Positions 5,546 to 34,130 of a stretch of 64,000 bases of DNA are shown in pieces. The notes beneath the pieces were generated by a model. It was not told the DNA's origin and made no database searches. It was given only the letters and a program-made list of their open reading frames with translations. Made by a program: the position numbers and the translations under genes. The stretch lies in NCBI GenBank assembly GCA_021791495.1, contig JAJYWN010000023.1, forward strand, positions 124,572-188,571. The letters are read 5' to 3'. The stretch is from Bacillota bacterium. Its GTDB lineage: Bacteria; Bacillota; Sulfobacillia; JAJYWN01. Positions within the stretch are counted from its first letter, which is position 1, and every line of letters starts with the position of its first letter.

Positions 5546-6904
5546 CTAACTGCGGCGGTGCACCAGTGCCATGGCCCGGGCCGCCCTTTCGGGGGTGGGG
5601 AAAACGAGCATCCCCTTGGACCGCAGTGCTTGGACTTCTTCTTTCTCGGTGGCACCCCCGCCGATGTAGCAGCAAACCACCTGTTTTCCGGACTCGAACG
5701 CTCCCGCTGCCAGACCGGCCGCGACCTCGGCGGCGCCGGGTATGGGGTCCCCGAAGATGGCTAACAAGGTCCCGGTCTCACCCGCCCGCAGCATGATGCG
5801 CCCTGCCACCTCGAAACGCGCGGCGTCGGCGTCGCCGGTCAGGTCCAGCGGGTTACCGATGACACAATGAGGGGGCAGGAAGGTTCTCAATTCGGCGGCG
5901 GTGGCCGACTGCAGGTCCGAGAGTCTATAGCCGTGCTCTTCGGCGGTGTCGGCCGCCAGGATCCCGCTGCCGCCCGAACTGGTGACCACCGACAGGCCGG
6001 CGTTGGACGGCCCGCCCAGGAACGCCCAAGTGCGCGCGGCGTCGAACAGGGAAATGACATCGGGGACCAGGACGGCGCCTACCTGGCGTGCCACGCCCTG
6101 AAACACGGCGTAGGAACCGGCCATGGACTTGGTGTGAGACTGGGCCGCCTTGATGCCACGCTCGGTGCGGCCGGGGCGCAGCACGAAGAGGGCCTTGCCG
6201 GCGCGACGGACGGCGCGGACCGCCTCCATGAACTTCCGGCCGTCGCGCAACCCTTCCACGTAGAGGGCTATGGCCAGTGTTCCGGGGTCGGCGGCGAAAT
6301 GGGCGATGAGGTCGGACTCATCCACGTCGCCGCGGTTCCCAAGGCTCACCACGCCCGATACCCCGGCGCCTTCATCTTCGGCCCACCCGGCCAGAGCGGC
6401 CGCCACCGTCCCGCTCTGGGATATGACGGCGATGGGCCCGCGCCTGGAGGTCAGGGGCCAGGAAGCGCAGAGCTTGGCGCCCGTGGATACGATGCCCTGG
6501 CAGTTGGGTCCGACCACGCGCACGCCGCTTTCCTTAATAGCCTGCTGGAGCCTGGTCTCCAGTTCATCGTTGCCCGCCTCGCGGAAACCGCCGCTGATGA
6601 CCACGGCGTACTTCACGCCACGGCTGCCCAGCTGCATCAAGGTGTCGGGCACCATGGCGGCCGGGATGACCACGACCGCTACGTCGACGCCGTCCGGCAA
6701 CTGGGGGACGGCGGGCACCACGGCGCGGCCCATAATCTCGCCGCCACGCGGGTTCACCGGATAGACCGGGCCCTCGAAACCGCCGGCCAGAATGTTTTGG
6801 AGGATGGTGTGCCCGGTCTTCCCCGGAGTAGCGGAAGCGCCGATGACGGCCACGGCCCGGGGTCGGAAAAGCGTCTCCAGTTCGCTTGGGTACTGGCTGG
6901 ACAT
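5546..6904 (-). CDS. acdA: ADP-forming acyl-CoA synthetase, alpha (CoA-binding) subunit
   Basis: The product (452 aa) has the CoA-binding Rossmann domain at the N-terminus (VIGASATPGKTGHTILQN) followed by two succinyl-CoA synthetase-like flavodoxin domains. The phospho-histidine loop appears as SHTKSMAGSYA; the family more often reads SHTGSLAG, so K replaces the usual small residue. It would pair with the separately encoded beta subunit at 2199-2855. The gene begins five bases after the FadR-type regulator ends and is followed by iorA 24 bases on, so it belongs to the same minus-strand operon. Confidence 0.9.
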   Translation of the reverse strand: MSSQYPSELETLFRPRAVAVIGASATPGKTGHTILQNILAGGFEGPVYPVNPRGGEIMGRAVVPAVPQLPDGVDVAVVVIPAAMVPDTLMQLGSRGVKYAVVISGGFREAGNDELETRLQQAIKESGVRVVGPNCQGIVSTGAKLCASWPLTSRRGPIAVISQSGTVAAALAGWAEDEGAGVSGVVSLGNRGDVDESDLIAHFAADPGTLAIALYVEGLRDGRKFMEAVRAVRRAGKALFVLRPGRTERGIKAAQSHTKSMAGSYAVFQGVARQVGAVLVPDVISLFDAARTWAFLGGPSNAGLSVVTSSGGSGILAADTAEEHGYRLSDLQSATAAELRTFLPPHCVIGNPLDLTGDADAARFEVAGRIMLRAGETGTLLAIFGDPIPGAAEVAAGLAAGAFESGKQVVCCYIGGGATEKEEVQALRSKGMLVFPTPERAARAMALVHRRS

Positions 6905-6909
6905 GGGAC

Positions 6910-7650
6910 CTATCCCTCCACCTTCGGAACGGTCCCGTCCGGCTGGCTCCGGTCTTTCAAGGCCCGCACCTGTTGAATGACATCGTTGATGTGCCGGGAC
7001 ATGGCCTGGCCGGCCGCTTCCGGGTCGTGGGTGGCGATGGCCGCGCAGACTTCCTGGTGTTGGCGGGCCGAAAGGAGGCCGCGGCCCTCCATGACGAAGG
7101 TGGCCTGCCGGTCATCGGCCCCCCAGGAACTGGGGGCCAGTTTGAGAAGAAAGGAGTTACGGCTGGCCTTGGCCACGGCGGTGTGAAAGTCCCGGTCCAG
7201 TTGGGCCATGGTCTCCGTGCCGCCCTCGTTCTTTTTGGCCTGCTCCACCATGCGGTCGGCCAGAGCCTCAAGCTCCTCTATGTCGGCCGGTTCGGCAAAT
7301 CTGGCCGCCAGCTGTGCGGCCTTCACTTCCACCGCTTCGCGGACTTCGAGCAGTTCCAGGACCTCAGTCTGAAAAGCGCGCAGCCAGGACAGCCACATAC
7401 GCGGCGGCTGACTCTGATCGCCCGATCCGGTGAGAAAGCAGCCCCGGCCGTGGCGCACTTCCACCACACCCATGGTTTCGAGGATGCGCAGCGCTTCGCG
7501 GACGCAGTTCCGGCTGACGGTGAACTCGGCCGCCATGGCATTCTCGTCCGGCAGGCGGGCTCCGGGCTCCAGCTCGCCCCGGCGGATCGCGGCGAGGATA
7601 TGGTCCACCACATGTTCGGCTTTCCGGACGCCCTTGAACGGCTTGAACAT
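6910..7650 (-). CDS. GntR-family regulator, FadR/FCD subgroup (copy 1)
   Basis: A 246-aa DNA-binding regulator: an N-terminal winged helix (GELEPGARLPDENAMAAEFTVSRNCVREALRILETMGVVEVRHGRGCF) and a C-terminal FCD ligand domain. FCD proteins usually bind small carboxylates. I chose the ATG at 7650 because GAGGAG lies seven bases upstream; a start at 7677 has no such site. It is first in the minus-strand operon with acdA-iorAB-acdB and divergent from the catabolic island. It is clearly paralogous to the regulator at 28740-29510: both share IWLSWL-type sequence, an EVL-L-EVREAVE-KAA block and MF-P at the N-terminus. It probably controls its own operon and perhaps the island. Confidence 0.9.
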   Translation of the reverse strand: MFKPFKGVRKAEHVVDHILAAIRRGELEPGARLPDENAMAAEFTVSRNCVREALRILETMGVVEVRHGRGCFLTGSGDQSQPPRMWLSWLRAFQTEVLELLEVREAVEVKAAQLAARFAEPADIEELEALADRMVEQAKKNEGGTETMAQLDRDFHTAVAKASRNSFLLKLAPSSWGADDRQATFVMEGRGLLSARQHQEVCAAIATHDPEAAGQAMSRHINDVIQQVRALKDRSQPDGTVPKVEG

Positions 7651-7740
7651 GTTAGTCTCCTCTGGTCGAAAATGCACCGGTCATTCTACAACTCCATCGG
7701 ACGGACGTTTCGGCGTACCTCCGTGAAATCCTTCTGTTTG

Positions 7741-7756
7741 GCAATATCAATATTGC
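7741..7756. promoter_or_regulatory. 16-bp perfect palindrome, candidate regulator operator
   Basis: GCAATAT-CA-ATATTGC reads as two 7-bp inverted arms around a 2-base centre. It lies 91 bp upstream of the FadR-1 start and in the region divergent from the opine-type dehydrogenase gene. It is AT-rich inside GC-rich DNA. The sequence differs from the classic FadR/GntR core, so assignment to the neighbouring regulator rests on position only. Confidence 0.4.
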
Positions 7757-8075
7757 CGCAAGACCCTGAAAGAGCCGCTACGACTGGATCGCGGCTTCCA
7801 AAAACCTTATTCACCAAGCAGGATTATGACTGGGAGAAAGAGAAAGTGATGAAGCAGTTGTAGAATCTCTCCACCTTTGTGACGGTCTCCAAGCGGCATG
7901 GTGCGGAAACCGGCCACGGTCTGGCGGTGTGGGATGGAACCCTGCGGGCGGTTCATCGCGCAAGGCGGAGAGATTAGGGTGCGGGGAAGTATGAGCAAAG
8001 CTGCTGGGCTGGAAGACAGAGGTCCTCGATTCTAGTAGTCATCAAAGCGTTAGCATTCAAGGAGGTAGACTGACA
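7757..8075. other. Intergenic region, no gene recognised
   Basis: No supported gene lies here. The region holds 9-bp inverted arms (AATCTCTCC at 7864-7872 and GGAGAGATT at 7967-7975) about 95 bases apart. A good ribosome binding site (AAGGAGG near 8059) belongs to the next gene. It may be a long leader of the island transcript. Confidence 0.35.
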
Positions 8076-9188
8076 GTGAAAGTCACGGTGTTGGGCGGCG
8101 GTAACGGCGCGTTTATCACTGCGGCAGATCTGGCGGGCCGTGGTCACCGGGTGAAGATCTACGAAGCCCCCGAATTCAGCAAGGCCCTGGAACCCGTCAA
8201 GGAACGGGGGGGCATCGAACTGGAAGTCCGCGCCGCCCTCAAACTCTCGGCCGGATTCTGGCCTGTGGAGGCTGTTTTCGACGCCCGCCAGGCGGTGGAG
8301 GAAGCGGAGATCATCCTCCTGGTCGTGCCGGCCTTCGCCCAGAAACGTTTCGCCGAACTGGTCGGCCCCCACCTGACGGACGACCAGGTGGTCATGATGA
8401 GCCCTGGGAACTTCGGCGGGGCCATTGAATTCGCCAAGATCATCAAGGAGAAGGGCGCCAAGGGCCGCCCCATCATCATGGAAAGCGAGTGCATGATCTA
8501 CTCGGGCTTCAAGGGCAGTCCCACGTCCGCCTGGGTGAGCGGTTTTAAGAACGGCATGCGCGCCGCGGCTTTCCCGGCCGTGGACGGGGCCCGGGGCATC
8601 AGCGTCATTCACCAGATTTACCCGCAGACCCAACTCTTCCATAATGTCATCGAAACCGGACTGGGTAACGTGAACACCGTCTTCCACGCACCCATCCTGG
8701 TCCTGAACGCCGGCCGGGTCGAGTCGGATAAGGACGAGTTCCTCTTCTACTGGGAGGGCTGCTCCCCGTCGGTGGGGCGCGTCGTTGAAGGGGTCGAAGC
8801 GGAACGGATGGCCCTTGGCAAGGCTCTCGGCATCCAGCCCATTCCCTTCAAAGACGTTATGATCGAGTGGTATGGTCACCAGGGTGCCAAGGGTGAGACC
8901 CTCTCGAAGATCATGGCCACCAATCCGGCCTACGAATGGGACACCGCCCCCCGGGACCTGCACCACCGCTTCCTGCTCGAAGACATTCCCTACGGGATGG
9001 TGGCCATGGAAGACCTCGGGAAGCTGACCGGTGTTCCCACTCCGCTCACCACGGCCGTGATCGAGCTGGCCTGTCGGCTCTTGGATGATGACCTGCGCGC
9101 GAAAGCCCGCAGCCTGCCCTCTTTGGGACTGGCCGGGCTCACCGTGGAGCAGTTCAAAGCGGTCATGGAGACGGGAAAAGGTTTCTAG
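8076..9188 (+). CDS. NAD(P)-dependent opine/octopine dehydrogenase-family protein
   Basis: A 370-aa oxidoreductase with an N-terminal Rossmann fold (VTVLGGGNGAFITAADLAGRGHRVKIYE) and a C-terminal octopine-dehydrogenase helical domain (GVPTPLTTAVIELACRLL). Known members reductively join a 2-keto acid to an amino group, or run in reverse to split an opine. GTG 8076 follows AAGGAGG by about ten bases. It opens the plus-strand catabolic island and is followed by an FAD enzyme; the pair could oxidise an N-substituted amino acid, but substrate and direction are unknown. A ketopantoate reductase-like role is a less likely alternative. Confidence 0.82.
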   Translation: MKVTVLGGGNGAFITAADLAGRGHRVKIYEAPEFSKALEPVKERGGIELEVRAALKLSAGFWPVEAVFDARQAVEEAEIILLVVPAFAQKRFAELVGPHLTDDQVVMMSPGNFGGAIEFAKIIKEKGAKGRPIIMESECMIYSGFKGSPTSAWVSGFKNGMRAAAFPAVDGARGISVIHQIYPQTQLFHNVIETGLGNVNTVFHAPILVLNAGRVESDKDEFLFYWEGCSPSVGRVVEGVEAERMALGKALGIQPIPFKDVMIEWYGHQGAKGETLSKIMATNPAYEWDTAPRDLHHRFLLEDIPYGMVAMEDLGKLTGVPTPLTTAVIELACRLLDDDLRAKARSLPSLGLAGLTVEQFKAVMETGKGF

Positions 9189-9326
9189 CCTCGTCGCCAC
9201 CTGTACTAGAGACTCAGCTTCTTGCGTTCTATTACTTAGAGGAATGCGACCCGAAGCGTTGAAAAACGTGCCGTTCACGACATACGACCTGCTCGCTGCC
9301 TGACAAGTCTAGAACCGGGGTGACCC

Positions 9327-10619
9327 ATGTTGGACCAGAACCAGAAGCATTACGACGTCGTTGTCATTGGGGCCGGCTGGGCCGGAGCTTCCGCCGCTCT
9401 TTCGGCGGCGAAGGCCGGCAGCAAGGTCCTGCTCCTCGAGCGCACGGACCTTATTCTCGGCATTGGCCTGGTGGGCGGCATTTTCCGGAATAACGGCCGC
9501 TTCTCCGCCGCTGAGGAAGGGCTGGCCATGGGCGGGGGCAACATCCTCTTCAAGGTCATGGATGGGTGCTGCCGCCACGCGAACATTGAGTTTCCTGGAC
9601 ACAAGCACGCCAGCCTCTATGACGTAACCCGCATCGAGGGCGACGTCCGGCGCATCCTGGGCGAATACGGCGTCGACCTGAAAACCGAGACCAGGGTGAC
9701 CAAGGTCGAGTCCAACGGTGACCGGCTCACGGCTGTGGTGGACGCCAATGGCGAAGCCTACCATGCCGACGCCTTCGTGGACACCACCGGGACCTTCGGT
9801 CCCATGGGCAACTGCTCGAAGTACGGGAACGGCTGCGCCATGTGCATCATGCGTTGCCACTCGTACGGCCCGCGGGTTAGCGTCAGCGCGCAGTCGGGCG
9901 CCAGGGAATTCGTCGGTGAAAGCACTCCGGGGAAGTTTGGGGCCATGGGTGGCGCCTGCAAAATCCTCCTGGATTCACTGGACGATTCGGTGCGCGTCCC
10001 CTTGGAGCGGGACGGCGTTCTGGTCATCGAGCTGTCGCCGGAAATGATCAACTCCACCAAGCTGATGATCAAGGCTTGCCAGCAATACGCCCTGAAAGAG
10101 TTCGCCGAGAACATTGTCCTCCTCGACACGGGCCACGCCAAATTGATGTCGCCCTACTTCCCCCTGGAAAAGATGCGCGAGATCCCCGGTTTCGAGCGGG
10201 CCCGGTTCTTTGACCCCCTGGCCGGCGGAAAGGCGAACTCCATGCGCTTCTTCGCCGTGGCTCCCCGCGACGACACCTTGAAGGTGGACGGGGTAGCCAA
10301 TCTTTTCGTCGGCGGCGAAAAGTGCGGCCTCTACATCGGCCATACGGAAGCTATCGCCACGGGCGCTCTGGCCGGCCACAACGCCGCCCTAAAGGCTCAG
10401 GGCAAGGATTCCATCACCCTTCCAGTGGAAAGCGCCATCGGCGACTTCATCCATTACGGCGGTGAGGTCATCCGCACCCCGGGTGGCACGGCCCAGCGGT
10501 TCACCTTCTCCGGAGCCGCATACTTCCAGCGGATGAAGGAGCGGGGGACTTACTCCACCGACGTCGAGGCCATCCACGGGAAGATGAAGAAGCTCGGAGT
10601 CGCGGGAATCCTCAACTAG
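9327..10619 (+). CDS. FAD-dependent oxidoreductase with a cysteine cluster
   Basis: The 430-aa product starts with a dinucleotide-binding motif (VVVIGAGWAGASAALSAAKAGSKVLLLE) and ends with an FAD-closing segment (NLFVGGEKCGLYIGHTEAIATGALAGHNA) reminiscent of the GidA/TrmFO fold. Between them are four closely spaced cysteines at about residues 163, 170, 173 and 177 (C-x6-C-x2-C-x3-C), which could hold an iron-sulfur cluster or a redox disulfide. ATG 9327 follows GGGGTGA. Its place just after the opine-type dehydrogenase and before a molybdenum hydroxylase argues for a catabolic role rather than tRNA modification. The exact reaction is not known. Confidence 0.72.
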   Translation: MLDQNQKHYDVVVIGAGWAGASAALSAAKAGSKVLLLERTDLILGIGLVGGIFRNNGRFSAAEEGLAMGGGNILFKVMDGCCRHANIEFPGHKHASLYDVTRIEGDVRRILGEYGVDLKTETRVTKVESNGDRLTAVVDANGEAYHADAFVDTTGTFGPMGNCSKYGNGCAMCIMRCHSYGPRVSVSAQSGAREFVGESTPGKFGAMGGACKILLDSLDDSVRVPLERDGVLVIELSPEMINSTKLMIKACQQYALKEFAENIVLLDTGHAKLMSPYFPLEKMREIPGFERARFFDPLAGGKANSMRFFAVAPRDDTLKVDGVANLFVGGEKCGLYIGHTEAIATGALAGHNAALKAQGKDSITLPVESAIGDFIHYGGEVIRTPGGTAQRFTFSGAAYFQRMKERGTYSTDVEAIHGKMKKLGVAGILN

Positions 10620-23204: not shown

Positions 23205-24710
23205 ATGGTCCTACAAGGTCTGCTCCTGGCTCTCTCACCGGCCACTATCATCACCATTTTGGTGGGAGTGTTCCTCGGTATCATCGTCGGCATCGTTCCC
23301 GGAGTCGGGGCCGGCGTGGGCTTGGCGCTACTGCTACCCCTTATCTTCTCGGCCCCGCCCCTCATAGGGCTCATGCTTCTGCTGGCGCTTTGGGCGGCCG
23401 ACGGATACGGAGCGTCGATCACTTCGATTCTCATCAACGTTCCCGGCGGCCCAGGGGCTGTTGCCACGAGCTTCGATGGCTATCCCATGGCCCAGCAGGG
23501 TAAAGCCGCCGTCGCCATCGGCCTGTCCATGGCCTCGTCCATGGTCGCCGGGATCATCGGAACGGTCGTGCTCATGGTTGCCTCCCCTCCTTTGGCCGAG
23601 TTGGCTGTGAAAATGGGTCCGCCGGAGTATACGGTGTTAGCCGTCTTCGGCCTGACCATCATCGGAGGGCTGACGTCGAAAGACCCTTTGAAAGGGTTGA
23701 TCGCGGCGGGCTTCGGGCTCCTGATCAGTTTCATGGGCTATGACCTCCTCACCGGCTTCGTCCGGTACAGCTTCGGATGGCAGCACCTGTATGACGGCAT
23801 CGACTTCGGCCTTGCCGTCATCGGAATCTTCGCCATCGGCAGTCTGGTGGACGCCGCGCAGGAAGGCGGCACCATTTCCGCCATGAGCAAAGTCGATGGA
23901 AGCACCTGGGAAGGATTCAAACTGGCCTTTAAGAAATACCCTATGGCCATGATCCGAGGCTCCCTGGTGGGTGCGGTCCTCGGTATCCTGCCGGGTATCG
24001 GCATCTCCATTTCGAGCCTCGTAGCCTACGATGTCGAAAAACGTGTCTCAAAGCACCCCGAGACGTTCGGCAAGGGCGCCCCCGAGGGTGTGATCGGTCC
24101 GGAAGCCGCCAACAACTCGGTACAGCCGGCCAACCTCATTCCCGTGCTCACCCTGGGCATTCCGGGCGGCGCGACATCGGCCGTATTCCTGGGAGCCCTG
24201 ATCATGTATGGCCTCACCCCCGGCCTGGACCTCTTCCGCAACCAGGGAAACGTGGTTTGGGGAATGTTCTGGGGCATTATCATCGCCAGCATCGCCTACG
24301 TGGCTGTGGGGATGCTCTTTGCGGGCTTCTTTGCTAAAGTGACCCTGATCCCGGTCGAATACCTCATCCCGGTTACCCTAGTGACCTGCTTTGTGGGAGC
24401 CTTCACCCTAAATGGCAAATTCCCGGACATGGTCCTGGCGGTGGCCATGGGTGTGGTCGGGTATCTGATGCTTGTCCTCAAGTACCCGGTGGCGCCGGCC
24501 GTCTTGGGCGTAGTGCTCGGGCCCATGCTCGAGCGCAACTACTTCCGTTCGCTCCTCATTTCCGGCGGCACGCATGCCATCTTCTTCCAAGGTTCTATCG
24601 TCTGGGTTCTGTGGGCCCTCACTGCTTTCGCCCTGGTATATCCCTATTTCGTTAGCTACAAGGAACGAAAGAAGGGCAAACGAATTCCTATCGAAGTGAC
24701 TGGCGGCTAG
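23205..24710 (+). CDS. tctA: Tripartite tricarboxylate transporter large membrane subunit (module 2)
   Basis: A 501-aa TctA-family protein, close in sequence to the one at 15706-17217. It has the same ADGYGASITSILINVPGGPGAVAT and EGVIGPEAANNSVQPANLIPVLTLGIPGG blocks and about a dozen hydrophobic segments. ATG 23205 follows an AAGGAGGGAGG region. It is coupled to ubiD copy 2, which starts 47 bases after its stop. Confidence 0.95.
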   Translation: MVLQGLLLALSPATIITILVGVFLGIIVGIVPGVGAGVGLALLLPLIFSAPPLIGLMLLLALWAADGYGASITSILINVPGGPGAVATSFDGYPMAQQGKAAVAIGLSMASSMVAGIIGTVVLMVASPPLAELAVKMGPPEYTVLAVFGLTIIGGLTSKDPLKGLIAAGFGLLISFMGYDLLTGFVRYSFGWQHLYDGIDFGLAVIGIFAIGSLVDAAQEGGTISAMSKVDGSTWEGFKLAFKKYPMAMIRGSLVGAVLGILPGIGISISSLVAYDVEKRVSKHPETFGKGAPEGVIGPEAANNSVQPANLIPVLTLGIPGGATSAVFLGALIMYGLTPGLDLFRNQGNVVWGMFWGIIIASIAYVAVGMLFAGFFAKVTLIPVEYLIPVTLVTCFVGAFTLNGKFPDMVLAVAMGVVGYLMLVLKYPVAPAVLGVVLGPMLERNYFRSLLISGGTHAIFFQGSIVWVLWALTAFALVYPYFVSYKERKKGKRIPIEVTGG

Positions 24711-24757
24711 CACAAAGGAACGACCCATTCGCACGCACCCTAGTAAGGAGGACCGAT

Positions 24758-26170
24758 GTGAAACACGATCTTCGTAGCTACCTGGCCGACCTGGAAGCAG
24801 CGGGCGAAATCCTGCACATCAAGAAGGAAGTCGATGTTCTGAAGAACGTGGGCGGACTGGCCTGGCAGGCCGAGAACTACATGGGCAAGGCTCCCATGTT
24901 CGAGAATGTGAAGGGCTATCCTGGCTGGAAAGTGCTGAGCTACCTGAATGGGAGCCGGCGCCGGCTGGCCTTCGGCATTGGAACCACGCCCGAAAAGTTC
25001 ATTCCCACCTGGCGGGAGCTGCTCCAGAAGGGCCTGACCCCCACGAAGATGGTGGGCAACGCCCCTTGCCAGGAAGTCGTCTGGACAGGCGACCAAGTCG
25101 ACCTCTCCAAGCTGCCCATCCACAAGCACTCCTATCTCTGTGCGGGCCCATACATAGGTGGCGGTCTGGGCATCGTCAAGGACCCTGATACAGGGATCCG
25201 TAATGTATCCCTCCACCGGCATCAGATCAAGGGCAAGGACAAGATGGGTGTCATGATGGTAGAGGGCCGACACATGGACCTCATACGGCGTAAGTGGGAT
25301 GCGTTGAACAAACCATGCCCCATCGCCATCGCCATCGGCCATCACGGTGCTCTCTACCTTGCTGCCAACTGGACCATGAGCTATGGCGTGGACGAGATGG
25401 AGTTGGCCGGCACCCTCTTGGGCGAACCGGTGGAAATGGTCAAGTGTAAGACCATCGACATGGAAGTTCCGGCCGACGCGGAAGTCGTTATCGAGGGACT
25501 GATACAACCCAACCAGCGCGAGTTGGAAGGTCCCTTCGCCGAGCACACCGGGTACGCACGGGCTGGTTCAGGTCAGAATCCCTGGCTAAAGGTCACCGCC
25601 ATCACCATGCGGAAGGACGCGCTGTTCTATGACCTCCAAGGTGGACGGCCGATCTCCGAATCGCAGATCCTGGACGGCATGCCCATGGAAGTCGTGTTGT
25701 TCGACCGTCTGAAAGACGTCGGTTCTTGGGTCGATCTAAAGGACGTCGTGGCGCTGCCCTCGGCCGGCGGATCCCACATCTTAGTCATCAAGATGACTCC
25801 GCACCTGGACGGCCAGGCCCGGCTGGTGCTGATGGCCGCCTTAGCACACCAATATATACATACCAAAGTAGCTATAGCCGTAGATGATGACGTGGATCCA
25901 CACAACGAGAAGGAACTGTGGTGGTCCATCTCGACCCGTGTCAATCCGGCCAAGGACATCTTCATCGTTCCAGATACGCTGGGGCATCCTTTGGATGCTT
26001 CGTTGGAACTGGTTACCCCTCCGGGGCACGCTCCGGGTGTACGTGTCGGTTCAAAAATGGGGATCGACGCGACCAAACCGCCCACACGCCTGGCCGAGGC
26101 ACGCGCCCACTTCGAGCGCGCCATGCCCAACGGACTCTACGAATACCTGCTGAAGGACTTCATCGGATAG
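24758..26170 (+). CDS. ubiD: UbiD-family prenyl-FMN-dependent decarboxylase (copy 2)
   Basis: A 470-aa paralogue of the decarboxylase at 17266, nearly the same length and alignable end to end. NVSLHRHQIKGKDKMGVMM holds the metal/cofactor residues and LEGPFAEHTGY holds the glutamate pair at about residues 257 and 262, the same positions as copy 1. GTG 24758 follows TAAGGAGG. It follows the second transporter and precedes a tautomerase. Divergence from copy 1 suggests a different ring substituent rather than simple gene dosage. Confidence 0.93.
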   Translation: MKHDLRSYLADLEAAGEILHIKKEVDVLKNVGGLAWQAENYMGKAPMFENVKGYPGWKVLSYLNGSRRRLAFGIGTTPEKFIPTWRELLQKGLTPTKMVGNAPCQEVVWTGDQVDLSKLPIHKHSYLCAGPYIGGGLGIVKDPDTGIRNVSLHRHQIKGKDKMGVMMVEGRHMDLIRRKWDALNKPCPIAIAIGHHGALYLAANWTMSYGVDEMELAGTLLGEPVEMVKCKTIDMEVPADAEVVIEGLIQPNQRELEGPFAEHTGYARAGSGQNPWLKVTAITMRKDALFYDLQGGRPISESQILDGMPMEVVLFDRLKDVGSWVDLKDVVALPSAGGSHILVIKMTPHLDGQARLVLMAALAHQYIHTKVAIAVDDDVDPHNEKELWWSISTRVNPAKDIFIVPDTLGHPLDASLELVTPPGHAPGVRVGSKMGIDATKPPTRLAEARAHFERAMPNGLYEYLLKDFIG

Positions 26171-26203
26171 GCGTGACCATATAGAAAGGCCTGGTGGATA
26201 CAG

Positions 26204-26425
26204 ATGCCGGTAGTCATTGTCGAAATGTGGGAAGGCCGGACCGTGGAACAGAAGCGCCGTCTGGTTAAGCGCATCACCGACGCCATGGTGGAAGAGGCGA
26301 AAGTCAAACCCGACCATCTGCACGTCATCATTCACGACGTCCCGAAGGATAGCTGGGGACGTGAAGGCAAGCTCGGTTCGGACCTGGAACCGGCCGGCGC
26401 CCCCGGCGAAGGCGGGAAGAAGTGA
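26204..26425 (+). CDS. 4-oxalocrotonate tautomerase-like protein
   Basis: A 73-aa small tautomerase. After Met removal Pro-1 is the expected catalytic base (MPVVIVEMWEGRTVEQKRRLV), and the family's C-terminal half follows (DHLHVIIHDVPKDSWG). Members interconvert enol and keto forms of ring-cleavage products. Its stop overlaps the next start (TGATG). Presence inside the island supports ring degradation. Confidence 0.88.
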   Translation: MPVVIVEMWEGRTVEQKRRLVKRITDAMVEEAKVKPDHLHVIIHDVPKDSWGREGKLGSDLEPAGAPGEGGKK

Positions 26426-26787
26426 TGGCCTACATCGAACGCCTGTCCCACATGGCCCTGAAGACCGTCGACCTGGAGAAGTCGGTCGAGTTCTACACTA
26501 AGGTCATCGGCCTCACCCTGCATTCTCGGGGGAAGGTGGGCGACGCTCCCTTGGTAGTGCTGGTGGAAGGCATTGGCCTAACCACCGGCGGGCCGGGCGC
26601 CGGCCACGCCACCGTAGTGGATCACTTTGCCTTCAAAGTCCCTGACCTCGGACCGGTGGTCGAACGCTTGAAGGCGGTCGGAGCCATGATCGTGGATGGC
26701 CCGCGCCCCTCGCCCTATGGTAACTCGGTCTACTTCCTTGATCCTGATGGTAACAAGGTCGAGTGCCACGATGGCGAACGTGCCTAG
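26425..26787 (+). CDS. VOC/glyoxalase-fold protein
   Basis: A 120-aa protein of the vicinal oxygen chelate fold. The N-terminal RLSHMALKTVDLEKSVEFYTKVIGL and C-terminal YFLDPDGNKVECHD are typical, with likely metal ligands His (SHMAL), His (VDHFAF) and Glu (KVEC). ATG 26425 overlaps the previous stop. Family members act as lyases, isomerases or dioxygenases; which one applies here is unknown. Confidence 0.82.
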   Translation: MAYIERLSHMALKTVDLEKSVEFYTKVIGLTLHSRGKVGDAPLVVLVEGIGLTTGGPGAGHATVVDHFAFKVPDLGPVVERLKAVGAMIVDGPRPSPYGNSVYFLDPDGNKVECHDGERA

Positions 26788-26832
26788 CACGGCGCCCGTC
26801 CGGTGCGCCGGATTTCGGAAGGAGGACGCCCC

Positions 26833-27723
26833 ATGTCCCTAGCCGGGCTTAAGACCGCCGTCATCGGCGGGGACGCCCGTGAACTTGAAATCGTCCGGCT
26901 CATGAAGCTTGAGGGGATGGACGTAAAGGTCATCGGTTTGCCTCCCGCCGTCGAGGCGGTCCTGGGCCGCCCGCAGGAAAAGACAGTCGGCGACGCCATC
27001 GACGGTTGCCAGGCGCTGGTCCTGCCCATTCCCGGTCAGGCGTTGGACGAGGCCATCTTCGCTCCGGCTTGGCCGGAGCGCATCTATGTGCGTCCCGCGG
27101 ATTTGGCCCGTGCGGTCAAACCGGCGTGTATGGTCATGGGGTGGGCTTCCCCGACGTTGAAGGGAGACCTGGAGCACGCCGGTATCAGGCTCCGCGAATA
27201 CGAAAAGGACGACGAACTGATGATCCTCCGGTCGCGCGCCATCGCCGAGGGAGCCATCAAAATCATCATTGAGAATACCGACGTCACCATTCATAAGGCC
27301 AAGGTGTTTCTCCTTGGGTTCGGTCGCGTGGCCATGACCATGCTGGAGGTGCTGAACGCGCTGGGCGCGCGGGTGACCCTGGTGGCCCGTAACCCGGCGC
27401 AACTGGCCCGCGGGTGGGAAATGGGGGCCGAGCCTCTGGAGTTGACGCAGTTGGCCGGCAGCATCGGACAAGCCCGGATCGTCATAAACACTGTTCCGGT
27501 CAGACTCCTGGATGCGGGGATGATCAAGCTAACGGCGCCTGACGTCCTGCTCATCGACATGTCCGCCCCTCCCGGCGGCATCGACTTTGACGCCGCCAAA
27601 GCTCTCGGGCGCAAAGGCGTCTGGGCGCGGGGCCTTGGGTCGCGGGCGCCGGTGACGGTCGGTGGCAGTCAATGGAAAGGTGTAAGGAAGATCCTTGTGG
27701 AAGAACTCCGGCCTCAGAACTGA
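26833..27723 (+). CDS. dpaA: Dipicolinate synthase subunit A-like dehydrogenase
   Basis: The 296-aa product aligns over its whole length with DpaA (SpoVFA), the subunit that, with flavoprotein DpaB, oxidises dihydrodipicolinate to dipicolinate during sporulation. The DpaA N-terminal block (LKTAVIGGDARELEIVRLMK) and the NAD-binding block (TIHKAKVFLLGFGRVAMTMLEVL) are plain, as is the late MSAPPGGIDFDAA motif. ATG 26833 follows GGAGGA. No dpaB is adjacent; instead the next gene is ubiX, a member of the same flavoprotein superfamily as DpaB. The place inside a catabolic cluster suggests a pyridine-ring reaction other than, or besides, spore dipicolinate synthesis. Confidence 0.82.
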   Translation: MSLAGLKTAVIGGDARELEIVRLMKLEGMDVKVIGLPPAVEAVLGRPQEKTVGDAIDGCQALVLPIPGQALDEAIFAPAWPERIYVRPADLARAVKPACMVMGWASPTLKGDLEHAGIRLREYEKDDELMILRSRAIAEGAIKIIIENTDVTIHKAKVFLLGFGRVAMTMLEVLNALGARVTLVARNPAQLARGWEMGAEPLELTQLAGSIGQARIVINTVPVRLLDAGMIKLTAPDVLLIDMSAPPGGIDFDAAKALGRKGVWARGLGSRAPVTVGGSQWKGVRKILVEELRPQN

Positions 27724-27756
27724 ATGTTGCGGGGGCCTTAAGGAGAAAGAGAACTG

Positions 27757-28341
27757 TTGAAGGCAGACAGAAGGAAAGTCGTGGTCGGGATCACCGGCGC
27801 CACCGGGTCCATCTATGGTGTCCGGCTCCTGGAGACTCTGGCCAAGCGGGATGACGCCGAAGTTCATCTGGTAGTCAGCCGGTGGGCCGAGCGCACCCTG
27901 GCTCTGGAAATGGGGCTTTCCGTGGCCGACCTGAAACCGCTGTGCCACCGGATGCACCCCCCCGAGGACGTATCGGCCGCCATCGCCAGCGGTTCCTTCG
28001 GAGTGCAGGCCACGGCCATCATTCCGTGCAGCATGAAGACCCTGGCCGCCGTGGCCGCCGGCTACTCGGCCGATCTGATATCGCGCGCCGCCGACGTGGC
28101 CTTGAAAGAGCGCCGTCCCTTGATCCTGGTGACGCGGGAGACGCCGCTCTCGGCCATCCATCTCAGGAACATGCTGACGGCCACCGAGGCGGGTGCCATG
28201 GTCCTCCCGCCGGTCCCGGCCTTCTATGGTCATCCCCAGAACATAGGGGACATTGTCATGCAGACCGTCAGCCGGGTTATGGACCACCTCGGCTTTCCGA
28301 ACTCGGTGGCCTACCGGTGGGAGGGGCTGGATGAACACTGA
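27757..28341 (+). CDS. ubiX: UbiX-family flavin prenyltransferase
   Basis: A 194-aa enzyme that joins dimethylallyl phosphate to FMN to make the prenyl-FMN cofactor for UbiD. The family marks are VVVGITGATGSIYGVRLLE, IPCSMKTLAAVAAGYSADL, and ERRPLILVTRETPLSAIHLRNM. DpaB lacks these marks, so this is not DpaB. The start is TTG 27757 with AGGAG upstream. It overlaps the LpdD-like gene by 11 bases and serves both UbiD copies in the island. Confidence 0.93.
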   Translation: MKADRRKVVVGITGATGSIYGVRLLETLAKRDDAEVHLVVSRWAERTLALEMGLSVADLKPLCHRMHPPEDVSAAIASGSFGVQATAIIPCSMKTLAAVAAGYSADLISRAADVALKERRPLILVTRETPLSAIHLRNMLTATEAGAMVLPPVPAFYGHPQNIGDIVMQTVSRVMDHLGFPNSVAYRWEGLDEH

Positions 28342-31172: not shown

Positions 31173-34130
31173 GTGTGCGGCATCTTTGGCTTTGCCGGAA
31201 AAACTGACGAGCAGCTTCTTGGCCGCATGGGTGCGGTCCTGATCCACCGCGGTCCCGATGACGGCGGCTCCTTGCGCCTGCCGTGGGTCAGCCTTGGCCA
31301 CCGCCGGCTGTCCATCATCGATATCGCGGGCGGACACCAGCCTCTGGCCAACGAGGACGAGACGGTCTGGCTCATCTTCAACGGCGAAGTTTACAATTAC
31401 CGCGAACTCCGAGCTGAGCTGCTGTCTAAGGGGCACCAGTTCCGTACGAACAGCGACAGCGAAGTCATCATCCACGCCTATGAGGAGTTCGGACCGGATT
31501 GCTTCAAGCGTTTCAATGGCATGTGGGCCCTGGCCATCGCCGACACCAAGCGGCGCCGGCTGGTGCTGGCACGCGACCATTTCGGCATCAAGCCCTTATA
31601 CTACGCCCAATCGCCGTCGGGCCGCCTGCTGTTCGCTTCAGAGATCAAAGCACTGTTGCAGGACCCGGCGATCAAGGCCGACGCCGATGACCAGATGGTC
31701 TACGAATACCTGGTCCACGGCTTCCACGATCACCGGTCGGAAACGTTCTTCAAGGGCATCTATCATCTGATGCCGGCCACCTACATGGTGGTGGACGTGG
31801 ACGCGGTGGTGGACGTGGACGCGGTGGGCGGCGCGGACGCGGCGGGCGGGCCGGATGGTAACGGGGCGCGCGACGGCGGCGCCACCACCGAAGCGGCCGA
31901 TGCCACCAATAACGGCGGTACCTTGCGGCTGCGCAGAGAACTCGTGACCTACTGGACGCCAAAGCTCAGCGAGGACGGCAGCGGTGATCCGGAGGAGTTC
32001 CGTCGCCTGTTCCAAAAGTCGGTGGAGCGCCGCTTGGTGGCCGAGGTCCCGGTAGGTTCGTGCCTGTCGGGCGGGTTGGACTCGACGGCCATCGTTTCTT
32101 TCATGAGCGAACTCCTGCGCGACAAGGCGCCGGACGCCGCTTCCATGCGCGGACAACTCAAAACCTTCTCGGCGGTCTTCGACAAGGACCCCATCGACGA
32201 GCGCGACTACATCAAGGTGGCCGTCGACCACACCGGCGCGGACACGACGTACATCCGACCGCAGTCCGAGGTCTTCGTGGATGAACTGCGCGACCTCATC
32301 TGGCACCAGGAGGAGCCCATCGTCAGCACGGGCCCCTACGCTCAGTGGTGTGTCATGCGGGAAGCCCGCAAGCAGGTCACCGTTCTCTTGGACGGGCAGG
32401 GCGGGGACGAGCTTCTGGCGGGGTACGTGCCCTACCACTTCGTCTACCTGCGCCAGCTCCTGAAGGAGCGTAAGTATGCGGCGTTGACCCGCGAAGCGTG
32501 GGCTGCGCGCGATATACTGAAGCCTTTCATCCTCAGGCGGCTCGGCCTGGGGGCGGGGCTGCGGGGTCTCCTGGGACGCGGGGCGAGGCGGCCGCGGGAC
32601 CTGCCGGTCCGCAGCCTGTTGCGACCCGAGTTCTCGGCGTCGGTGAAGGACCCCGGGTACGGCCGGTCTCAGGATAATCTGAAACTTCGGCTGTTACAGG
32701 ATGTCACCACCTACAGCCTGCCGTGCCTGCTCCGGTACGAGGACCGGAACTCCATGGCCCACTCGGTGGAGTCGCGGGTACCGTATCTGGACCAGGAGCT
32801 GGTGGAATGGATCCTGCGGCTGCCGCCTTCGGCCATGGTCCGTGACGGTTGGAGCCGGTGGATCGTGCGGGCCGGCCTGCGCGGCGTGCTGCCTGAGAAA
32901 ATCAGGGGGCGGCGCTGGAAAGTAGGGTTCACCACTCCCGAGATGCGCTGGCTGAAAGCTCGTCGGGCCACGTTCCTCGGCCTGTTCCGGTCGCCGACGT
33001 TCCAGGCACGCAAGTACTGGGACGCGGAGAAAGTGGCCGCCGCCTTCCTCGGCGCATGCCAGGGCAGGGTGGACGAGTCCATGTTCTTCTGGCGGGCCAT
33101 CAATGTGGAGTTGTGGTTGCGCGAGTTCATCGACGCTCGGGCTTCGGCCGGCTCGGGCTCCGGAACCGCGGTGGCAACCACGTCGTCTCCGGCGGCACTG
33201 GTGGCGGCAGCGGAGGACGTGCAGGCAACGGCGGTAGCACAGGCGGCGGCGGCCCTGACCTTGCCAGGTCCCGTAGGTGCTCAGCACCGCGGCTCCCTGG
33301 GAGACCTGGGGGACATGCTGGCGGCGGATATGATCGGGACCGAAGAAGCGTGGCGTCTGCGCGACACCTACCGTCCCGACGGTGGCAAGCACCTGTTCGC
33401 CACGGCGCGCGGTCGGGTTTACGCTCGGCTGCCCATCAAGACCGGCAAGCTGGTGCGCGGTGACAGTCTGGACGACTTCGTGGCCGAATACGCCGGCCCG
33501 GTCGTGCGGAATGGCGACATCATGGTCATCGCCGAGAAGCCGGTAGCCATCAGTCAGGGGCGGTCGTGGCCCATTGAGGAGATCAAGGCCACCTGGCTGG
33601 CGCGGCTCCTGACCAAGGCGGTCACCAAGACGCCGCACGGCATCGGCCTGGGCATTCCCCAGACCATGCAACTGGCGCTGAACGAGGCGGGCGCGCCCCG
33701 TATCCTGGTCGCGGCCGTAGTCTCGGCGGTAGCACGCGTCCTCGGTGTACGCGGCGTGTTCTACAAGATTGCCGGTCCGACGGTGGAAGCCATCGACGGC
33801 CCGACGGCGGGCACCTTGCCGCCCTATGACAGCCAGGCCAAGTTGGGGCCGAAGGACCCCATGGGTGTGGCGGCGCATCTCGCGGAGATGCTTAGTGGCA
33901 GTGGCGCCGTGGGCGTGGCTATCATCGACGCCAGTGACTTGTCGGTGAAGGTGTTAGGCCACTCTGCCGGAGTAGATCCGGCGGTGGTTGCCACCTTAAT
34001 GCGGGATAACCCGCTGGGTCAGGGCCATCAGCAGACACCCATCGCCGTGCTGCGGATGGTCGGCGAACTGCCGGGAACGCCGCGGGACGAGAGCGCGCGG
34101 AGCGGACGGTCTATGGCGGCGGCCGACTAG
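31173..34130 (+). CDS. asnB: Asparagine synthetase B fused to a C-terminal CofE-like (F420-0:gamma-glutamyl ligase) domain
   Basis: A 985-aa protein with unusual architecture. Residues 1-200: class II glutamine amidotransferase; GTG 31173 places Cys2 (M-CGIFGFAG) as the free N-terminal nucleophile, with GGGGAGGG upstream. About 206-250: an Asp/Val/Gly/Ala-rich insert encoded partly by 18-bp repeats. About 260-650: the asparagine synthetase ATP-pyrophosphatase domain (SCLSGGLDSTAIVSF, LDGQGGDELLAGY, RVPYLDQELVEW). About 655-710: an Ala/Ser-rich linker. About 745-965: a domain like CofE (PIKTGKLVRGDSL, VIAEKPVAISQGR, TKTPHGIGLGIPQTM, IDGPTAGTLPPYD, NPLGQGHQQTP). The first part makes Asn or another amide from Gln; the second type of domain joins glutamate to an acceptor. 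The joint product is unknown. Confidence 0.88.
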   Translation: MCGIFGFAGKTDEQLLGRMGAVLIHRGPDDGGSLRLPWVSLGHRRLSIIDIAGGHQPLANEDETVWLIFNGEVYNYRELRAELLSKGHQFRTNSDSEVIIHAYEEFGPDCFKRFNGMWALAIADTKRRRLVLARDHFGIKPLYYAQSPSGRLLFASEIKALLQDPAIKADADDQMVYEYLVHGFHDHRSETFFKGIYHLMPATYMVVDVDAVVDVDAVGGADAAGGPDGNGARDGGATTEAADATNNGGTLRLRRELVTYWTPKLSEDGSGDPEEFRRLFQKSVERRLVAEVPVGSCLSGGLDSTAIVSFMSELLRDKAPDAASMRGQLKTFSAVFDKDPIDERDYIKVAVDHTGADTTYIRPQSEVFVDELRDLIWHQEEPIVSTGPYAQWCVMREARKQVTVLLDGQGGDELLAGYVPYHFVYLRQLLKERKYAALTREAWAARDILKPFILRRLGLGAGLRGLLGRGARRPRDLPVRSLLRPEFSASVKDPGYGRSQDNLKLRLLQDVTTYSLPCLLRYEDRNSMAHSVESRVPYLDQELVEWILRLPPSAMVRDGWSRWIVRAGLRGVLPEKIRGRRWKVGFTTPEMRWLKARRATFLGLFRSPTFQARKYWDAEKVAAAFLGACQGRVDESMFFWRAINVELWLREFIDARASAGSGSGTAVATTSSPAALVAAAEDVQATAVAQAAAALTLPGPVGAQHRGSLGDLGDMLAADMIGTEEAWRLRDTYRPDGGKHLFATARGRVYARLPIKTGKLVRGDSLDDFVAEYAGPVVRNGDIMVIAEKPVAISQGRSWPIEEIKATWLARLLTKAVTKTPHGIGLGIPQTMQLALNEAGAPRILVAAVVSAVARVLGVRGVFYKIAGPTVEAIDGPTAGTLPPYDSQAKLGPKDPMGVAAHLAEMLSGSGAVGVAIIDASDLSVKVLGHSAGVDPAVVATLMRDNPLGQGHQQTPIAVLRMVGELPGTPRDESARSGRSMAAAD
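31788..31841 (+). repeat. 18-bp tandem repeat (about 3 copies) inside asnB
   Basis: Three 18-bp units begin at 31788, 31806 and 31824; the first two are identical (VVDVDA) and the third is diverged (VGGADA). They begin a low-complexity insert between the amidotransferase and synthetase domains and keep the frame. Confidence 0.85.

Follow-up and report, generated by a model that had tools for sequence, protein, structure and literature searches.

An asparagine synthetase-type amidotransferase fused to a CofE-like ligase domain recurs in several bacterial phyla and probably tailors a cell-envelope building block

To our knowledge, the characterised members of the CofE-type fold serve F420 synthesis. 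In CofE, a GTP-derived acyl phosphate is formed on a carboxylate and glutamate is then coupled to it, a scheme that its authors liken to that of MurD; in addition, an F420-contacting hairpin has been described in the A. fulgidus enzyme (PMC10861534). Enzymes of the AsnB type can be further differentiated into glutamine-hydrolysing asparagine synthases (TIGR01536), N-acetylglutaminylglutamine amidotransferases (TIGR03104), which amidate a dipeptide, and the peptidoglycan-amidating enzymes of several Gram-positive bacteria (e.g., B. subtilis AsnB, C. glutamicum LtsA, and Listeria AsnB), which amidate mDAP (PMC8554201). Both enzyme kinds are known, whereas no description of their combination, of a split form of it in a division gene cluster, or of a CofE clade outside F420 synthesis was found in open-licence papers; a full-text search of these for AsnB together with a CofE-like domain, and for PF01996, returned no paper on the combination, in line with the original prediction, whose author knew of no such described protein.

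The fused gene lies at 31173..34130 on the forward strand of the window (the whole stretch of 64,000 nucleotides that was analysed), and is a single frame without internal stop that encodes 985 amino acids plus the stop from a GTG start, an arrangement found as one frame in many genomes. Because this GTG start gives (M)CGIFG, the glutaminase Cys2 is present; its codon (31176-31178) is situated 5' of the GATase_7 glutamine amidotransferase domain span (31299..31661, +; Pfam residues 43-163, E 2.7e-50). The ATP-pyrophosphatase (synthetase) domain with its SGGLDS motif is located at 31995..33122 (+; Pfam Asn_synthase, residues 275-650, E 2.8e-75), and its substrate region reads EEPIVSTGPYAQWC ... 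DGQGGDELLAGY in the motif table. A low-complexity insert within the AsnB part (residues 213-248; 31809..31916, +) is predicted to be disordered (pLDDT < 50), and the AsnB parts of relatives are shorter across this span. An Ala/Val-rich, low-complexity linker of about residues 661-703 (33153..33281, +), likewise predicted to be disordered (pLDDT < 50), precedes the CofE-like ligase domain of about residues 735-965 (33375..34067, +), which is delimited by PF01996, a PDB profile, Foldseek, and invariant residues.

The Pfam match of this C-terminal domain to F420_ligase (PF01996, residues 755-919) has an E-value of 5.7e-8 and scores 33 bits against a gathering cut-off of 25, and the fold agrees with membership of the superfamily. 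Against the PDB, CofE is the only convincing match by profile (2phn/7uld, E 2e-5), and CofE structures are the only convincing matches by Foldseek (2phn, E 2.2e-10, prob 1.00). The AlphaFold2 model of the domain alone predicts a confident CofE-like fold (pLDDT 87.6, pTM 0.84), and the full-length model (pTM 0.82) predicts two folded parts with the disordered linker between them. The architecture first proposed for this locus, i.e., a single open frame in which a complete AsnB with Cys2 and SGGLDS is joined by a low-complexity linker to a CofE-like C-terminal domain, is thus borne out in each of its parts.

Within the class to which the source genome belongs, relatives of the C-terminal domain were found in 114 of 154 genomes searched; about two dozen frames in these genomes are long enough for fusions, and those read are continuous AsnB-CofE proteins, with relatives from several families of the class represented. 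More fusions were obtained from genome contigs labelled Bacillota, Actinobacteria/Thermoleophilia, Chloroflexi, and Dormibacteraeota. Since several records are the same assemblies, the counts from both searches cannot be summed directly, and the resulting figure of more than 30 genomes or MAGs with a continuous fusion, from Bacillota, Actinomycetota (Thermoleophilia), and Chloroflexota/Dormibacterota, allows for this overlap. The AsnB/CofE-like pair is thus spread over three or more bacterial phyla, and the presence of the same continuous fusion in several families of the class and in public MAGs labelled as three to four phyla rules out an assembly error or chance. A plasmid search with the CofE-like domain yielded no match.

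In the tree, a branch supported at 94/90 separates the fused CofE-like domains, as a single clade, from the rest. Seven Thermoleophilia genomes carry the two activities as separate adjacent genes, most of which overlap, at distances that are approximate because start codons were picked mechanically: the overlap is 4 bases in L106, L107, and L108 (e.g., 7872-7875), 8 bases in L176 (7462-7469), and one shared base in L105/L175, where asnB ends and the cofE-like gene starts at 1889; in L173, cofE-like (6717-7433) and asnB (7434-9434) abut on the minus strand with no overlap, and in L174 the AsnB call consists of two broken frames, with the cofE-like call beginning 188 bases inside. An AsnB-type gene also overlaps a CofE-like gene in L228 and L229, which come from two genomes in the search around a Chloroflexota/Dormibacterota genome and branch deeply in both the CofE-like and the AsnB trees. 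The search for the same fusion or adjacency in other genomes, which had been suggested at the outset, succeeded for both forms.

The two halves can nonetheless part. In one fusion (L051 in G067, 460-2913), Cys2 and SGGLDS are lost from the AsnB half and the CofE-like half is intact, and three genomes (G440, G583, and G378) possess a CofE-like protein with only weak, glutaminase-domain AsnB matches, so that some genomes have kept a CofE-like domain but no functional AsnB half. Conversely, L109 (G163) keeps AsnB with an eroded CofE part, and a stand-alone CofE-like gene is located elsewhere in that genome. Beyond the AsnB-linked clade, the CofE-like domain occurs alone, behind TPR repeats, or fused or adjacent to Amidase_3 (N-acetylmuramoyl-L-alanine amidase; L067, L068, and L070); stand-alone relatives, which had been mentioned for Firmicutes, do exist, but their range is not confined to that phylum. 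On inspection by eye, the Amidase_3 proteins of L068 and L070 lack an evident signal peptide, in which case amidase and ligase would form a pair in the cytoplasm. As for the TPR-type repeats, they were identified by Pfam in L069 (6653-8095), and similar N-terminal repeats were seen by eye in L184 (7684-9093) and L185 (7162-8535). Three tandem CofE-like genes are found in one genome (L057, 9368-11847).

The gene neighbourhoods differ among lineages. In Thermoleophilia, the split pair is part of a division cluster with the order PgeF-YlmE-SepF-ProC-YggT-[pair]-DivIVA-YggU-DksA-LspA-RluD, and this position, with YggT on one side and DivIVA on the other, is shared by all six genomes read on both flanks (G154/L106, G155/L107, G156/L108, G179/L173, G209/L176, and G227/L174), the outer ends differing slightly. 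The seventh (G221, L105/L175) could be read on the DivIVA side only, as its contig starts inside asnB; all seven are one lineage by the tree, and thus amount to one independent context. In L083, L090, and L104, a class A PBP gene begins 18 bases 3' of the fusion (identified by Pfam for L104 only, and by clustering for the other two), and in L222 and L223 the last 4 bases of the fusion are shared with a full-length alanine racemase gene (Pfam run on L223). These three apparently wall-linked contexts were recognised post hoc. Two of three relatives from the window's order have an ECF sigma factor gene and a MucB/RseB-like gene following the fusion, which the third is without, and in the remaining lineages the neighbours encode transporters, peptidases, and unrelated proteins; no peptidoglycan synthesis gene is present in the neighbourhoods read for other lineages, the window's own included.

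In the window itself, a MATE gene lies upstream of the fusion, and HD and Germane genes lie downstream. A conserved operon was considered and rejected, since the MATE, HD, and Germane genes are not recurrent beside other fusions; for the suggested spore product, the one sign is the converging Germane-domain gene next door, which was not seen beside the other fusions. Replacement of MurT/GatD by the pair was also discarded, as some carriers have MurT_C, the window's own genome being one, and others lack it. At a distance from the fusion, the region 23205-28341 contains a TctA-like membrane protein gene (named by eye) upstream of a dipicolinate synthase subunit A-like gene (227.7 bits to NF006162, cut-off 261), the latter flanked by genes for a UbiD-family decarboxylase and UbiX.

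Its recurrence across three or more phyla, some of which have it next to cell-wall genes, makes the modification of a cell-envelope building block the probable function of the pair, and not the synthesis of asparagine or F420. The more specific proposal, a cytosolic bifunctional enzyme acting on a carboxylate-bearing envelope precursor, most likely the stem peptide of peptidoglycan, either as such or linked to lipid, is given about an even chance. By homology, the AsnB half would hydrolyse glutamine, adenylate the acceptor carboxylate, and convert it to an amide, and the CofE-like half would use a nucleoside triphosphate and divalent metals to form an acyl phosphate on a carboxylate, to which an amino acid would be coupled, as glutamate is in CofE. 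Gene context points to an envelope precursor as the putative target, and the order of the steps, like the action of both halves on one molecule, is presumed. The single fused clade and the adjacent split genes speak for a coupling of the halves, and the division (dcw) cluster, the class A PBP (PBP1A), the alanine racemase (Alr), and the Amidase_3 relatives speak for a wall context, which lends support to the earlier guess of a cell-wall product. Against this role stand the other neighbourhoods without a peptidoglycan synthesis gene, the post hoc choice of the wall contexts, the DGQG of the AsnB half in place of a Bacillus-type SGEG, a DGQG-type relative in a polysaccharide locus, and the separate loss of the halves, as in L051 and L109. 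The accompanying idea that one protein may amidate and glutamylate the same product is supported insofar as the two activities travel together, fused or in adjacent and mostly overlapping genes, though they can also part.

It is unlikely that the protein is simply an asparagine synthetase whose accessory or regulatory domain derives from CofE, and that it lies next to wall genes by coincidence, even though it has the AsnB domain order, scores 434.6 bits against the TIGR01536 cut-off of 267.1, and has intact catalytic motifs, with Cys2, the glutamine-site NGE motif, and SGGLDS retained across the fused clade in the motif table. The genome has a second, separate AsnB (L132, 28% identical), and, beyond the added C-terminal domain, the substrate region of the fused clade is unlike that of E. 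coli AsnB: STGPYAQ stands in place of TTIRASTP, and DGQGGDELLAGY is found where E. coli AsnB has SGEGSDEVFGGY (SGEGSDE to DGQGGDE). Moreover, the charged core of the CofE-like domain stays invariant even in proteins with a defunct AsnB half (L051) or none. The same comparison bears on mDAP amidation, for which the peptidoglycan-amidating AsnB enzymes are a precedent as AsnB-type catalysts of the proposed chemistry. A Bacillus-type AsnB from a Metabacillus plasmid (L245) carries SGEGADELFGGY with SGEG, whereas the fused clade has DGQG, and is placed far from that clade in an AsnB tree that includes no proven mDAP amidase (one entry, L232, is a wrong reading frame and was disregarded); since the AsnB half has DGQG and not SGEG, it is at most a candidate mDAP amidase.

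A surface polysaccharide could also be the substrate, the AsnB half amidating a sugar acid and the CofE-like half adding an amino acid to the same glycan. This would suit L110, a DGQG-type AsnB relative situated among UDP-GlcNAc 2-epimerase, sugar epimerase, and flippase genes, and a Solidesulfovibrio plasmid relative with glycosyltransferases nearby. In the loci read, however, no glycan cluster surrounds the fused or split copies, and the one Dormibacterota/Chloroflexota context with a flippase-like gene upstream has a class A PBP gene too; this origin of the substrate is accordingly regarded as improbable. About as improbable is the production of a small soluble peptide amide, for example a compatible solute such as N-acetylglutaminylglutamine amide, in which the CofE-like half would join amino acids and the AsnB half would amidate the product. 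The association of an AsnB-type amidotransferase with a peptide-forming enzyme fits such a logic, and TIGR03104 scores well at 292.5 bits, though under its cut-off of 570.1; yet the partner genes are different, no acetyltransferase or peptidase recurs beside the pair, and the pair is repeatedly placed with division and wall genes instead.

Compared with an envelope role, the F420 connection of the C-terminal domain fares far worse. The domain shares with CofE and the FbiB N-terminal domain (TIGR01916, PF01996) the fold, the N-terminal motifs GDDL and K..GR, and a matching Asp motif (IIDANDL versus IISDTxGRPWR), but it is about 27 residues shorter, by eye, between the Asp motif and NPLGQ/LVMG, and its fusion partners are AsnB, Amidase_3, or TPR repeats instead of the nitroreductase of the CofE/FbiB counterpart. 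Its score to the equivalog model TIGR01916 (F420_cofE) is 23.4 bits against a cut-off of 180.65, with 42.1 bits for L107 and 279.1 bits for a Chloroflexota CofE homologue (L205), and no NCBIfam model matches the C-terminal part above cut-off. By profile search, the genome contains no CofH, and its sole match to CofD has 24.5 bits against a cut-off of 257.45. On account of the low score, the shorter length, and the absence of CofH and a genuine CofD, the domain is, by sequence comparison, a distant relative of CofE and not CofE itself. That it should serve a cryptic F420 pathway as a genuine F420-0:glutamate ligase, as its PF01996 match above the gathering cut-off might suggest, is hardly credible, and a role in F420 biosynthesis was ruled out on the same TIGR01916 score and missing CofH and CofD.

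Seven residues of the CofE-like domain (R797, D875, D919, N946, P947, G949, and P956 in window numbering) show no variation in 76 family members, including CofE-like domains with partners other than AsnB, and this invariant charged core argues for an active enzyme. The Chloroflexota CofE homologues can be aligned with the family in the first half of the domain and again at the Asp motif, and the charged core is partly alignable with them in this sequence comparison.

Proteins of the CofE-like/AsnB family are likely misread as F420 or asparagine enzymes. A broader reading is put forward tentatively, namely that they form a new peptidoglycan-tailoring family spread over several phyla, in which a CofE-type ligase may add an amino acid to the cross-bridge or the stem peptide, with amidation by a partner of the AsnB type, thereby providing a non-Mur, non-ATP-grasp route of branching. 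If the wall role is true, CofE chemistry would have a second biological job, peptidoglycan synthesis would gain a new kind of peptide ligase, and unusual wall chemistry would be predicted in little-studied lineages of Bacillota, Thermoleophilia, and Chloroflexota.
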